This document shows positions 2,987-36,480 of a DNA stretch of 38,458 bases, piece by piece. The notes under the pieces are model-generated. The model made no database searches and was not told the origin of the DNA. It saw nothing but the letters and a program-made list of their open reading frames with translations. The position numbers and the translations under genes were made by a program. The stretch comes from Bacteroidota bacterium (lineage in GTDB: Bacteria > Bacteroidota > Bacteroidia > Chitinophagales > Chitinophagaceae), in contig SXXL01000008.1 of the NCBI GenBank assembly GCA_005789565.1, forward strand, positions 1 through 38,458, in the 5' to 3' direction. The first letter of the stretch is position 1. Every line of letters starts with the position of its first letter.

Positions 2987-4834
2987 ATGAGCGATCCCAT
3001 TAAACACGAGTGCGGCCTGGCCTTCATCCGCCTGCGCAAGCCATTTTCACACTACCATCAACGATATGGCACCGCCTTGTGGGGATTGAACAAGCTTTAC
3101 CTGCTAATGGAAAAGCAGCACAATCGAGGGCAGGACGGAGCCGGCATCGCCACGGTCAAGCTGGATGTGGAGCCCGGTTATCCGTTCATGAATCGTCTGC
3201 GTAGCAATGCCCCGCAGGCCATTGCCGATATATTCCAGCAGATCGGTCAGGAAGTGAGTGAGCTCGAAAAATATCATCCCCAGATCAAAAATCAGCCCGG
3301 CTTGCTGAAAGGACATCTGAACTTTTTAGGCGAGTTGATGATCGGCCATCTTCGTTACGGCACGCAAGGGAAGAATAAGGTTGAATACTGTCACCCGTTC
3401 ATCAACCGAGACACCATCCCGGCCCGCAACCTCGCGCTGGCCGGAAATTTCAATATCGTCAACGCGGACGAGCTGTATTCATCCATAGGCAAAGAGCCAC
3501 AGGAGTCGGTTCGCTTCAGCGACCTTGCCGCCATGATCGAACTCATGTACGCCCGGTTGTGTGAGGAAGATGAGCGTTCACCGCAGCAACTCCATATTGA
3601 ACAGGTATTGAAACAGACCTTGCCCTTGTTGGATGGTGGTTATTTTGTGGGTGGCGCTACCGGTAATGGCATCGGATTTTTATTTCGGGATGCGCATGGC
3701 ATTCGCCCCGCGTATTATTATATGAACGACGAAGTGGTCGTGGGCGCCTCGGAGCGTTCGGCCATTCGCACGTGTTTTAACGTGGGCGAGAACGAGGTCA
3801 AGGAATTGATGCCCGGACAGGCCCTGATCGTAAATGAAAAAGGGGAGGTAGAGCTGCAGCAGATCCTCGAGCCCAAAACAAGATTGGCCTGTAGTTTTGA
3901 GCGGATCTATTTTTCGCGCGGCAGCGACGAGAAGATCTATCAGGAGCGATTGGCGTTGGGATATAATTTGAGCGAGCAAGTCTTGACCTCGATCGATCAC
4001 GACCTGAAGAATACCAAGTTCTCTTTTATCCCCAATACGGCAGAGGTGGCTTTTTATGGATTGCTCAAGGGCATGGAGGACTATCTCAATCGCGTCAAAG
4101 TAGAGCGGATCCTGAGCTGGGGAAAGGATTTTGACGAGGAGAAATTGACCGAAATGATCACGCGCAAGATCCGGATCGAAAAGATCGCGATCAAGGACGT
4201 GAAAATGCGGACGTTCATTACGGAGGATGCGAGCCGCAACGAGATGGTGCAGCACGTGTATGATATTACCTATGGTACCATTCGCGCGGACGAAGACACC
4301 TTGGTGGTGATCGATGATTCGATCGTTCGGGGAACCACCCTTCGGGAAAGCATCATTCGGATGTTATCAAGGTTGAAGCCAAAGAAGATCGTGGTGGTTT
4401 CTTCTTGTCCCCAGATCCGCTACCCCGACTGCTACGGCATTGATATGAGTAAGATGGGTGATTTCATCGCATTCAACGCAGCGGTTTCCCTGGCAAAGAA
4501 GAATGGATTGACGGGAAAGATGGAGGCGTTATTCGATCGTTGTCAGTCGTTAGAAGCCAACAATACCTTGCACACCGTGAATGTCGTGAAGGAATTTTAT
4601 GGTCATTTCTCGACGGAGGCGTTGACGCAGGAGATCGCTGCCTTGATCACCCCGCCCGATGTGTCCGTTCCCGTTGAAGTGATCTTTCAGAATATTGAGA
4701 ATTTACATAAGTCCTGCCCCAACAACCGCGGCGACTGGTACTTTACCGGAAACTATCCTACGCCCGGCGGCAATCGAGTGGTGAATCGGGCGTTTATGAA
4801 TTACATGGAGGGACGGAATGAGAGAGGATATTGA
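2987..4834 (+). CDS. Amidophosphoribosyltransferase family protein (long PurF paralogue)
   Basis: This is a glutamine-dependent PRPP amidotransferase-family enzyme; the canonical reaction is the first step of de novo purine synthesis. The N-terminal Ntn glutaminase part shows KHECGLAFIRL (candidate nucleophile Cys9), QHNRGQDGAGIA and GHLRYGTQG. The phosphoribosyltransferase part carries the PRPP loop VVIDDSIVRGTTLRES near residue 445. At 615 residues it is about 100 longer than ordinary PurF. It has insertions and a C-terminal extension ending DWYFTGNYPTPGGNRVVNRAF. Bacteroidota often carry such a long form beside a standard PurF, so its substrate is not certain. The start at 2987 gives an eight-residue leader before the Cys, compatible with propeptide removal. 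Its TGA stop is formed by the first unit of the heptad array that follows. Confidence 0.85.
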   Translation: MSDPIKHECGLAFIRLRKPFSHYHQRYGTALWGLNKLYLLMEKQHNRGQDGAGIATVKLDVEPGYPFMNRLRSNAPQAIADIFQQIGQEVSELEKYHPQIKNQPGLLKGHLNFLGELMIGHLRYGTQGKNKVEYCHPFINRDTIPARNLALAGNFNIVNADELYSSIGKEPQESVRFSDLAAMIELMYARLCEEDERSPQQLHIEQVLKQTLPLLDGGYFVGGATGNGIGFLFRDAHGIRPAYYYMNDEVVVGASERSAIRTCFNVGENEVKELMPGQALIVNEKGEVELQQILEPKTRLACSFERIYFSRGSDEKIYQERLALGYNLSEQVLTSIDHDLKNTKFSFIPNTAEVAFYGLLKGMEDYLNRVKVERILSWGKDFDEEKLTEMITRKIRIEKIAIKDVKMRTFITEDASRNEMVQHVYDITYGTIRADEDTLVVIDDSIVRGTTLRESIIRMLSRLKPKKIVVVSSCPQIRYPDCYGIDMSKMGDFIAFNAAVSLAKKNGLTGKMEALFDRCQSLEANNTLHTVNVVKEFYGHFSTEALTQEIAALITPPDVSVPVEVIFQNIENLHKSCPNNRGDWYFTGNYPTPGGNRVVNRAFMNYMEGRNERGY

Positions 4835-4945
4835 AGGATGAAGGGTGAAGGATGACGGGTGAAGGGTGAAGGGTGAAGGGTGAAGTGGTAGAGGGTTGAG
4901 CATTGAGAAGTGACGGCGGACGGCCGACTTCATTAGTCATTGGAC
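4832..4945. repeat. Composite heptad array between convergent genes
   Basis: Degenerate 7-bp tandem repeats fill the whole gap between two convergent genes and overlap both of them. From 4832 to about 4885 the units are GGTGAAG/GATGAAG-like, with GGG runs at 4857, 4864, 4871 and 4878 in exact 7-bp phase. Units resembling GGTAGAG and GGTTGAG follow to 4900. From 4904 to 4945, read on the minus strand, six in-register heptads follow, including GTCCAAT and GACTAAT. The upstream stop (TGA) and the downstream gene's stop (TAA, 4933-4935) both lie in repeat units. All three repeat families found in the window occur together here. Confidence 0.85.
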
Positions 4946-8578: not shown

Positions 8579-8586
8579 CAAAAGTA
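8579..8586 (-). promoter_or_regulatory. -7 box TACTTTTG for the aminotransferase
   Basis: Perfect TAnnTTTG on the minus strand, ending 4 nt before the ATG at 8574. Its upstream bases are shared with the first GTAGAGG unit of the adjacent heptad array. Confidence 0.5.
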
Positions 8587-8689
8587 GAGGAAAAGGCAGA
8601 GAGTAGAGGGTAGAGGGTAGAGGGGTTTAGGGTAGAGGGTAGATGGTAGAGGGGTTGAGGGTTTAGAGTTTAGGGTTGAGGGGTGAGAG
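8584..8689 (+). repeat. Left heptad array (G-rich strand) flanking the four-helix-bundle gene
   Basis: Degenerate 7-bp units of the GGTAGAG / GGTTTAG / GGTTGAG type, G-rich on the plus strand. GGG runs recur at 8608, 8615, 8622, 8630 and 8637, nearly every 7 bp. The opposite-strand version of the same units lies on the other side of the gene (9098-9190), so the gene sits between imperfect inverted arrays. Confidence 0.85.
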
Positions 8690-8749
8690 TTGTGGGATAA
8701 CGGTTTGTGGTATTTACTACTTGTGTTCCACAGCGTATCATCGTGTGGT

Positions 8750-9139
8750 ATGTACTCCTATCCTTTTGAACGCTTGGAAGTTTGGCAGTTGTCGATAGAG
8801 TTGACTGCCAATATATATTCTAGCACCGACAAATTCCCTTTCCGTGAGCAATACGGATTGAGTCAACAGTTGAGAAGAGCCGCTGTCTCTGTTTCATCAA
8901 ATATCGCGGAAGGTTCTGGACGAATTTCGAAAAAGGACCAGGCACATTTCTTTAGTATGGCATACAGTAGTTTGTTAGAAGTATTAAATCAATTAATACT
9001 CGCCCACAGAATTGGATACATCCAGGAAGATGATTTAGCATCAATACGCTCGGGTGTAGAGGTATTGTCCAGAAAAATTGCCTCCCTCCGAACCGCCACC
9101 CTAAACTCTAAACCCTCTACCCTCTACCCTAAACCCTAA
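8750..9139 (+). CDS. Four-helix-bundle protein (23S rRNA-intervening-sequence / Avd-like family)
   Basis: This small helical protein belongs to the family first met as ORFs in 23S rRNA intervening sequences; the same fold is used by the Avd accessory protein of diversity-generating retroelements. The signature is clear: YPFERLEVWQLSIELT, then the conserved FPFREQYGLSQQLRRAAVSVSSNIAEGSGR, then a helix with SLLEVLNQLILAHRIGYI. The molecular role of free-standing members is unknown. The ATG at 8750 gives the usual family N-terminus. The gene looks AT-richer by eye than its neighbours, suggesting transfer. Its last residues (LNSKPSTLYPKP) and TAA stop are encoded inside the right-hand heptad array. 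There is no reverse transcriptase or rRNA nearby, so it is neither a DGR nor an rRNA IVS here. Confidence 0.88.
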   Translation: MYSYPFERLEVWQLSIELTANIYSSTDKFPFREQYGLSQQLRRAAVSVSSNIAEGSGRISKKDQAHFFSMAYSSLLEVLNQLILAHRIGYIQEDDLASIRSGVEVLSRKIASLRTATLNSKPSTLYPKP

Positions 9140-9190
9140 ACTCTAAACTCTAAACTCTCTACCCTCTACGGCCCGCAGGGCCCTCTACTT
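9098..9190 (-). repeat. Right heptad array (C-rich on plus strand) flanking the four-helix-bundle gene
   Basis: Seven-bp units CCCTAAA, CCCTCTA and ACTCTAA continue across the gene's 3' end to the msrB stop. CCC runs at 9113, 9120, 9127 and 9134 are in exact 7-bp phase. The array encodes the C-terminus and stop of the four-helix-bundle gene and supplies the TAG of the convergent msrB gene (9185-9187). It contains the hairpin at 9170-9182, which recurs near 30.26 kb. Confidence 0.85.
9170..9182. repeat. Dispersed hairpin GGCCC-GCA-GGGCC (copy 1)
   Basis: A perfect 5-bp GC stem with a 3-nt loop, directly preceded by CCCTCTAC. A second copy with loop GAA and the same flank lies at 30259-30271. 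Each copy sits shortly before the stop of a minus-strand gene. There is no T-tract on either side, so it is not a typical terminator. Confidence 0.6.
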
Positions 9191-13460: not shown

Positions 13461-13472
13461 GGTGCGAAGATA

Positions 13473-13593
13473 GGGTGAAGGATGAAGGGTGAAGGATGAA
13501 GGGTGAAGGATGAAGGGGGAAGGATGAAGGGTGAAGGATGAACGGTGGTAAGTCAAAAGTTCACCCTTCATCCTTCACCCTTCATCCTTCCCC
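13473..13593. repeat. Inverted heptad array: five 14-bp direct units plus inverted copies
   Basis: Five consecutive copies of the 14-bp unit GGGTGAAGGATGAA start at 13473, 13487, 13501, 13515 (one mismatch) and 13529. After a 17-nt spacer the same sequence runs in reverse complement from 13560 to 13593. The whole therefore forms a large imperfect palindrome, filling the divergent gap between rlmD and the redoxin gene. The plus strand of the left arm contains TGA in every frame. The complementary strand is free of stops, so it reads as a spurious N-terminal extension of rlmD. Confidence 0.9.
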
Positions 13594-29090: not shown

Positions 29091-30197
29091 CTATCTTGAA
29101 AATCGGCAGGATTCACTTTTCCTCAGCCATTCCTCTGAAATTTTAGCGCCCAGTCCGGGGCTGTCCGGCACTTCGATCACCCCACCCGGGTGGTACATGA
29201 TCCCCCCTTCAACCGGATCTTCCCTGAGCATCAGGGCCGTATCGAAATCATAATGAACGATCTGTTCGCTGCAAAGCGCGAAATGGGCAAAAGCCGTCAT
29301 TGCCAACCGCGATTCGATCATGGCACCCACTTGTAATTTGATGCCGGCCTCCTCGGCCAACTGAACGATCGCTCGGGCGCTCCGGATGCCGCCTGACTTA
29401 CCCAATTTGATATTCATATACTGACAGGCACCGAGAGCGATGAGTCGGGCTGCGTCGTGTTCATCCCCCAAACATTCATCGGCCATGATCGGGATGGGGG
29501 ATGCTTCCCGAACTCGGGGGAGGGACATATAGTTCCAGCGAGCGATGGGTTCTTCGCAGTGTTCAATATTGAGCGGAGCCAATGCCTGCAGGGTTTCGAT
29601 GGCTTCGTCGACCAACCAGCCCTGGTTGGCATCAATGCGCAGGGGAATATCAGGTCCCACGGCCGCCCGTATTTTTCTCATACGAATGACATCGGTTCGT
29701 CCCTGCTTTCCCAATTTCACTTTGATATAGGGAAAACCTCTTTCCAGGATCTTAACGGCATCGGTGGCCATCTGATCAGGATCGCCGATGCTGACCGTAT
29801 AGTCGGTCGTGATGGTTTTATTCTTATTCCCTCCTAAAAATCGATACAGGGGCATGCCGGCAGCCTGCGCGGCAATATCGTAGCAAGCGATATCGAAAGC
29901 ACTCTTGATGCTTTTATTGCCGTAGATCACGGCATCCATCTGCTGGTGGATCGAGTCGATGTCCATCGCATCTTTCCCGATCAGCACTTTTGCCAAGTAT
30001 TGCCCGACGAGATAAGCCGTTTCCTGACTTTCTCCGTTGATGGGCAAATAGGGACTGCACTCTCCAAATCCCACGATCCCCGAATCCGTCTGAATGCGCA
30101 CCACCACATTCAACGCATCATCGTCCCGCCCCAACGAAGTGATGAACGGTTCGATCAGCGGAATGCTGAGTTTGTGGAGGGAGATTTCCGAGATCAA
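29091..30197 (-). CDS. Dipeptide epimerase (L-Ala-D/L-Glu epimerase type, enolase superfamily)
   Basis: This is an enolase-superfamily epimerase acting on dipeptides, in peptide or murein recycling. Catalytic lysines are in the YIKVKLG strand and in MNIKLGKSGG. Metal ligands are in RIDANQG, EHCEEP and MADECLG. The DFDTAL motif near the C-terminus is the DxD that binds the dipeptide amino group in this subfamily. There is no ATG before the domain: I place the start at a TTG (30197) giving LISEISLHKL. An in-frame extension to 30242 is encoded only by heptad repeats (STLYPLPP). The S46 dipeptidyl-peptidase lies 84 bp upstream on the same strand, so both may act in peptide scavenging. The exact dipeptide is unknown. 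Confidence 0.85.
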   Translation of the reverse strand: MISEISLHKLSIPLIEPFITSLGRDDDALNVVVRIQTDSGIVGFGECSPYLPINGESQETAYLVGQYLAKVLIGKDAMDIDSIHQQMDAVIYGNKSIKSAFDIACYDIAAQAAGMPLYRFLGGNKNKTITTDYTVSIGDPDQMATDAVKILERGFPYIKVKLGKQGRTDVIRMRKIRAAVGPDIPLRIDANQGWLVDEAIETLQALAPLNIEHCEEPIARWNYMSLPRVREASPIPIMADECLGDEHDAARLIALGACQYMNIKLGKSGGIRSARAIVQLAEEAGIKLQVGAMIESRLAMTAFAHFALCSEQIVHYDFDTALMLREDPVEGGIMYHPGGVIEVPDSPGLGAKISEEWLRKSESCRFSR

Positions 30198-30198
30198 A

Positions 30199-30287
30199 GG
30201 GGGTAGAGGGTAGAGGGTTGAGGGTTGAGGGTAGAGGGGCAAGATCTCTACCCTCTACGGCCCGAAGGGCCACTTTACTTTCTACTT
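30199..30287. repeat. Inverted heptad array between S46 peptidase and epimerase
   Basis: GGTAGAG/GGTTGAG units on the plus strand have G-runs at 30208, 30215, 30222, 30229 and 30236, exactly every 7 bp. After a short spacer the opposite-strand units follow (CTCTACCCTCTAC, 30246-30258), then the hairpin at 30259-30271 and further TCTACTT-like bases that supply the TAG stop of the S46 gene. This is the same order of parts as around the four-helix-bundle gene, but without a gene inside. Confidence 0.85.
30259..30271. repeat. Dispersed hairpin GGCCC-GAA-GGGCC (copy 2)
   Basis: Same stem as the copy at 9170-9182 with one loop base changed (GCA to GAA). It has the same upstream flank CCCTCTAC and the same placement just before the stop of a minus-strand gene. 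There is no T-tract. Confidence 0.6.
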
Positions 30288-36431: not shown

Positions 36432-36480
36432 GTCCGCGGTCCGCCGACCGCAGTCCGCGGTCTTCTCAACCCTCATCCCC
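36432..36480. repeat. Short heptad array after paaY
   Basis: Four in-register GC-rich heptads (GTCCGCG, GTCCGCC, GACCGCA, GTCCGCG) at 36432-36459 share the GTCCGCC/GACCGC core with 22236-22249. They are followed, read on the minus strand, by GGATGAG/GGTTGAG units (36463-36480). The TGA stop of paaY (36475-36473) lies in these units. Confidence 0.72.

Follow-up and report, generated by a model that had tools for sequence, protein, structure and literature searches.

Small genes of the PF05635 family, whose product is of a nucleic-acid-binding type, are usually packaged in heptad hairpins that come and go between genes, so that they probably represent a widespread and hardly noticed form of mobile DNA. 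The case analysed here lies in a window of 38,458 nucleotides (the whole stretch of DNA examined, from the Bacteroidota genome G000), where positions 8582-9190 form an insert of about 610 bp, consisting of an open reading frame (ORF) of the PF05635 (23S-rRNA-IVP, four-helix-bundle) family flanked by inverted (GGGTAGA)n arms. The likely interpretation is that this unit is a mobile element of the type of the rRNA intervening sequences (IVSs), which lives between protein genes.

Anatomy of the Focal Unit and Its Protein

The anatomy of the unit is established, and its parts are listed in Table 1. The unit is located between an aminotransferase gene and msrB, not inside an rRNA gene, and is antisense to both neighbours, being one of nine such elements in the sample. 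Its outermost ends are mutually inverted, the right one supplying the stop codon of msrB, and the last residues of the focal protein, ending in TLNSKPSTLYPKP, are encoded together with their stop codon within the right array. Folded as RNA, the 616-nt element has its arms paired in the predicted structure of either strand (z -7.8 and -8.2); this fold, together with the same arrangement in homologues, shows that the arrangement is beyond chance. The initial annotation, made from the sequence alone, had described a four-helix-bundle gene enclosed by inverted heptad arrays, AT-richer than its surroundings and with its last residues and stop encoded by the right array: all three claims held, the first on the basis of the profile matches and of the two arrays, the second with a GC content of 0.42 for the gene vs 0.525 for the window.

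Table 1. Features of the focal unit and of the other heptad arrays, in window coordinates
Feature	Position	Strand	Basis
Outer left terminus of focal unit, AAGTAGAGG	8582-8590	+	sequence; inverted copy at 9182-9190; junction empty in relative G023
Left arm, G-strand heptad array, GGGTAGA with GGGTTTA/GGGTTGA variants	8593-8689	+	period 7; pairs with right arm in predicted fold
PF05635/TIGR02436 four-helix-bundle protein, 129 aa from ATG	8750-9139	+	profile matches, AlphaFold2
Right arm, C-strand heptad array, reverse-complement type of left arm	9098-9170	-	period 7
GGCCCGCAGGGCC hairpin, msrB end of focal unit	9170-9182	no strand	sequence
Outer right terminus of focal unit, CCTCTACTT, holding TAG stop (9185-9187) of minus-strand msrB	9182-9190	-	sequence
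Cargo-less unit, G-strand arm (GGGTAGA/GGGTTGA)	30196-30243	+	period-7 array
Cargo-less unit, C-strand arm, TCTACCCTCTAC	30245-30258	-	sequence
GGCCCGAAGGGCC hairpin of cargo-less unit, followed by dpp7 stop at 30282-30284	30259-30271	no strand	sequence
Second cargo-less hairpin family, GGGTGAA/GGATGAA arms (13471-13547 and 13559-13593)	13471-13593	no strand	period-7 arrays
Single GGGTGAA heptad array	4831-4891	+	period 7

The focal protein matches PF05635 with an E-value of 5.8e-35 (120.2 bits, curated cut-off 33.8) and TIGR02436 with an E-value of 1.1e-32 (112.5 bits, curated cut-off 24). Its ORF, with the stop at 9137-9139, most probably starts at the ATG at 8750 rather than at the listed TTG at 8690. 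The AlphaFold2 model (pLDDT 95.3) is closest to the solved fold 2GSC (TM 0.87, rmsd about 1 A), followed by 2RLD and then by the Avd proteins of diversity-generating retroelements (DGRs), 4DWL/8UBx, with a TM of 0.7-0.76; no nuclease or polymerase domain was recognised in the protein. Across ten pairs of PF05635 genes dN/dS ranged from 0.02 to 0.17; thus, purifying selection acts on the four-helix protein.

Association of the Family with Heptad Arms

PF05635 was found in 155 of 199 relatives, with a maximum of 16 copies per genome, and a scan of named genomes yielded 80 loci, from many phyla. Period-7 arrays occur at 1.27 per kb within 300 bp of PF05635 genes vs 0.10-0.15 per kb farther out, an approximately tenfold enrichment; within the same 300 bp no arrays of periods 4-6 or 10-12 were detected, and period 8 was weakly present. 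Matched inverted arrays enclose 16 of 71 focal PF05635 genes vs 11 of 970 other genes from the same loci; three of these 11 are further PF05635 genes, and most of the remaining ones either have an array in common with a focal gene or are ORFs derived from an array. Only two PF05635 genes were met in other stretches, which had been fetched blind, and both had matched arms.

Since strict lag-7 detection missed units of 8, 9 and 11 nt (L002, G023), an array-free test was used instead, in which the left flank was locally aligned with the reverse complement of the right flank. Median scores were 21 for 140 PF05635 loci, 9 for permuted flanks and 10 for 485 other small genes; about three quarters of the PF05635 loci, from many phyla, had an inverted-flank match above the 95th percentile of permuted flanks, and the other small genes were mostly below it. 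At the 99% cut-off the odds ratio between the two groups was 47 (p 5e-42). Arms are weak or undetectable in about a quarter of the PF05635 loci at the flank sizes used; they are present at all six cyanobacterial plasmid loci and around most copies of two multi-copy genomes. The association of the family with inverted heptad arms is thus demonstrated, and the proposal that arrays flank these genes more often than other genes, which a lack of association among homologues would have refuted, was strongly supported.

Genomes without PF05635 contained no arrays in about 185 kb; they are mostly small and may belong to one clade, and the coincidence that array-free genomes are exactly those without a PF05635 gene is merely suggestive. 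None of the PF05635 loci in the sample was located in rRNA, as judged by a no-long-ORF proxy without an Rfam scan.

Properties of the Arms

Among 131 armed elements, the unit length is 7 or 14 nt for 105, and 17 others have 8-nt units; G exceeds C in the left arm of 123 of 127 elements. Within a locus the two arms match at 12.8/14, vs 8.96 between loci (10,000 permutations). The sixteen PF05635 copies of one genome have differing arm units, which rules out that the units are specific to the genome rather than to the element. At unrelated sites, similar proteins are accompanied by similar units (Mantel r 0.23, p 0.0005); the correlation persists when GC is removed (p 0.001), excluding GC content as its cause. 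Eleven Bacteroidota genomes have an element at the fadB-fadA junction; its arms vary from lineage to lineage, yet left and right continue to match each other (own 17.6, cross 11.3, p 1.5e-4). The protein tree is poorly resolved and neither shows nor rules out that the fadB-fadA residents share a single origin. The arms, matched within each locus and co-varying at fadB-fadA, are hence kept complementary. That the stem is functional, as RNA or as single-stranded DNA, is an inference.

Filled and Empty Junctions

The aminotransferase-msrB junction is 15 bp long in the close relative G023, where it is empty, vs 623 bp in the G000 window, and it is tight in seven further genomes. Three PF05635 units, all different, are found in the homologous phage-like contigs L153, L159 and L143: one junction is empty in L153 and filled in L159 and L143, each by a different unit, and another is filled in L153, occupied by a short hairpin-like stretch in L159 and empty in L143. 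The PF05635 copy of L159 contains an in-frame stop, as expected of decaying copies. Insertion polymorphism of PF05635 units is therefore shown, and the general criterion for mobile elements, occupied and empty sites in otherwise homologous DNA, is met both by G000/G023 and by the phage-like contigs; the reciprocal state of the latter is likely to reflect mobility, for which it is strong evidence, transposition itself not having been observed. No clear target-site duplication was found at the two junctions read, aminotransferase-msrB and that of the phage-like contigs. The initial annotation had proposed a mobile unit and had suggested looking for strains in which the junction lacks the gene; the polymorphism supports the former, such junctions were indeed found, and a conserved syntenic position without arrays, which would have argued against it, was not seen.

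The number of PF05635 copies varies from 0 to 16 within one genus, and the units, which span many phyla, occur on plasmids as well as in phage-like contigs. They are co-directional with both neighbours in 96 of 125 elements vs 69 of 159 small-gene controls. Some placements are probably old and vertically kept, as that between argC and argD, where position and arms are conserved in eight genomes. In L166 and L167, one PF05635 gene with ACGTTGA units is repeated in tandem almost without change, possibly through a recent duplication of the unit.

Cargo-Less Units and Lone Arrays

At 30196-30287 the window contains parts ordered as in the focal unit, without cargo. The 19-bp GGCCCTKCGGGCCGTAGAG, made of hairpin plus array (GTAGAG) and lying here at 30253-30271, is found perfectly at two sites only of the genome, this and the focal unit. 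The same order of parts had been recognised at 30199-30287 at the outset and had been read either as an empty site or as a unit without cargo: the order and the second reading held, and the first failed, since in three close relatives (G013, G036, G023) the same junction holds a cargo-less hairpin of other unit families; the true empty site is the aminotransferase-msrB junction of G023.

Of the heptad sites of G000 compared with G023, at least five are occupied in G023 by a hairpin from another unit family. The junction orthologous to 13471-13593 has GTTTAGN arms in G023 instead, the array at 4831-4891 is missing from the orthologous junction, and one of the replacing hairpins is an 11-mer hairpin matching the arms of a resident G023 PF05635 gene. 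G000 and G023 each have dominant dispersed heptad families. In 1.886 Mb of G023, 38 strict arrays include two dispersed families, GTTTAGN and GACATYG (C6, C1, C3, C8; loci L232, L276-L301 and others). These heptads, the commonest dispersed ones of G023, differ from the units that arm its two resident PF05635 genes, and the 11-mer family alone is common to dispersed repeats and arms; therefore, dispersal in trans by a resident protein is not shown in G023, and the two families may be orphan or host-spread repeats.

The msrB-aminotransferase junction of G040 (L238, 8480-9960) and G013 (L175, 2000-2990) holds a PspC-like gene and a repeat protein between heptad arms and, in G040 only and not in G013, a GNAT gene in its own arms. 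Together with the cargo-less hairpins, these genes show that arms can exist without PF05635 cargo. A short GTCCGCG period-7 array was observed at 36432-36462 of the window, inside or near coding sequence, and a MITE-like hairpin family with an internal GAACAGGGTTTAG motif was noticed at G000 loci L022 and L028; it is present in G023 too.

Alternative Explanations

Two alternatives remain conceivable, both of them unlikely. According to the first, the unit is a resident RNA-regulatory module, inherited vertically, whose stem in the operon mRNA acts as an RNase III/termination or stability switch and whose protein is an autoregulatory binder. This view is favoured by the operon placement of the elements, the co-variation of the arms at fadB-fadA, the conservation at argC-argD, the low dN/dS and the strong predicted fold. 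Against it stand the filled and empty junctions among close relatives, the occupation of a single junction, in homologous contigs, by PF05635 genes that are not the same and have units of their own, the copy numbers of 0-16 within a genus, and the occurrence on plasmids, on phage-like contigs and in many phyla.

According to the second, heptad hairpins are hot spots generated by slippage and hairpin repair, and PF05635 and other genes are passengers that recombine in via the arrays. The GNAT and PspC-like cargo of G040/G013, the different unit families at orthologous junctions of G000 and G023, and the mismatch between the dispersed heptads of G023 and its PF05635 arms are consistent with it; however, the enrichment is specific to one protein family, each copy has its own matched unit even inside one genome, and arm units follow protein similarity.

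It is very unlikely that the unit belongs to a retroelement or REP/RAYT-like system and is moved by a reverse transcriptase or Y1 transposase, with the four-helix protein serving as an accessory in the manner of Avd in DGRs. Such a system would accord with the similarity to the Avd fold (PMC10053308) and with the resemblance of cargo-less copies to REPINs; however, neither the RVT_1 reverse transcriptase nor the Y1 transposase (Y1_Tnp, PF01797) model of Pfam had a match in the unit-bearing genomes G000, G023, G013 and G036, of which G023 and G013 are listed as 100% complete. Enzymes outside these models are not excluded; a requirement for movement driven by either is unsupported. Finally, that low-complexity repeats came to lie beside an unrelated gene by chance, a reading whose support is limited to a single locus, is all but excluded by the period-7 enrichment, the within-locus arm match and the inverted-flank test.

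Proposed Mechanism and Significance

In the preferred reading, that of an IVS-type element between protein genes, a lone ORF of the IVP/Avd four-helix fold occupies the loop of a long stem, with inverted arrays of element-specific 7-8-nt units as arms. Insertion would take place at gene junctions, mostly within operons, directly after a stop codon and directly before the next start; an RNA stem would be tolerable there and, like that of rRNA IVSs, would probably be cleaved by RNase III. Copies of the arms that lack cargo may stay or spread as short hairpins, feeding the heptameric repeat families of bacterial genomes. The protein is inferred to be the stem-binding factor of the element itself and to participate in its movement, which may proceed via a folded RNA or single-stranded DNA intermediate with strand transfer by host, other trans or still unrecognised enzymes. 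That the protein binds the stem and leaves strand transfer to other enzymes is inferred from the lack of a recognised nuclease or polymerase domain and of RVT_1 and Y1_Tnp in the four genomes. The initial suggestion that the protein creates or spreads the arrays is likewise still an inference, though arm units follow the protein and not the genome in which it lies.

A bolder reading envisages a bacteria-wide mobile class built on a lone Avd-like four-helix protein: with no known transposase or reverse transcriptase involved, the protein would recognise its own inverted 7-8-nt arrays, generate them and spread them. The class would then be a main source of bacterial heptameric intergenic repeats and the parent of rRNA intervening sequences; the evidence falls slightly short of favouring this reading.

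Over-represented heptameric repeats of Xanthomonas, Nostoc, Beggiatoaceae and Bacteroidota have so far lacked an origin, and PF05635 units may explain them, although the link was not directly tested for the Nostoc chromosome and Beggiatoaceae. Similarly, no common explanation has been available for the PF05635 proteins recorded in rRNA inserts, in cas loci and as "hypothetical" operon genes. A single protein family with a single stem architecture and element-specific units ties repeats and genes together in a testable way. A further caution is that genes annotated as "four helix bundle protein" within operons (acc, arg, fad, nrd, cas) have probably been inserted as elements and do not belong to the operon.

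Comparison with Known Systems

In rRNA IVSs a PF05635-family ORF is contained in a stem-loop; long suspected to be mobile, they replaced small hairpins or loops of rRNA helices (PMC4990558). Like the 23S rRNA IVSs of Coxiella, Leptospira and others (S23/IVP ORF), the present units have the ORF in the loop of a terminal-inverted-repeat stem, and the hairpin-by-hairpin replacement at heptad sites resembles the replacement of small rRNA loops by IVSs (PMC4990558). Unlike them, they lie in protein-coding operons, have element-specific 7-8-nt arrays as arms, include cargo-less copies and are present in many copies per genome. Among the IVS criteria, the focal unit meets that of an IVP-family ORF in a terminal inverted-repeat stem-loop and not that of a location inside an rRNA gene; its long predicted duplex is compatible with RNase III excision. 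What is likely to be new is the occurrence outside rRNA, the arms made of heptads, the existence of copies without cargo and the connection with heptameric repeats. The initial designation of the unit as undescribed held only in part, given that the architecture of an ORF of this family in a stem-loop is already that of the rRNA IVS (PMC4990558); its combination with heptad arms was not found in the open-access literature searched, an absence that is no proof of novelty.

REPIN/RAYT systems resemble the present units in that palindromes are dispersed in intergenic regions and the one gene to which they relate is itself flanked by such repeats (PMC3116915). The differences are that no Y1/HUH protein was found (the PF01797 criterion is unmet) and that the repeats are tandem arrays of short units, changing from element to element. 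DGR Avd shares the four-helix fold and is a nucleic acid-related accessory protein; unlike in DGRs, the reverse transcriptase criterion is unmet, with no RVT_1 in G000.

Among published heptamers, the GGGAATC and GGGGA(T/C)T repeats of Xanthomonas and Nostoc are G-quadruplex heptamers, the former often found as convergent pairs between aligned ORFs, and no link to mobile elements was found in that study (PMC4692102); the TAACTGA repeats of Beggiatoaceae are also heptameric and have no evident transfer mechanism (PMC4679880). The present arrays resemble them in their 7-nt units, in the convergent G-rich pairs (as in Xanthomonas) and in their position between aligned ORFs, directly behind a stop codon or ahead of a start codon (PMC4692102, PMC4679880). 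The link to PF05635 is absent from the relevant sections of both accounts, whereas here the Xanthomonas family encloses a PF05635 gene: in Xanthomonas vasicola this gene is located between accB and accC (Biotin_lipoyl, Biotin_carb), inside GGGAATC-type arms. Double-unit GGGAATC matches number 408 in X. vasicola vs 4 for the control, and 222 in Pseudoxanthomonas vs 2.

Genes annotated as 23S_rRNA_IVP have been reported in cas loci (PMC3936711), and PF05635 units acting as inserts probably account for them. Heptads on cyanobacterial plasmids also enclose a PF05635 gene. Two such placements were recorded as separate observations: a unit between cas6 and cas4 on plasmid pANA02 of Anabaena sp. 90 (L361), and one between two ribonucleotide reductase subunit genes on a plasmid of Nostoc edaphicum (L356).
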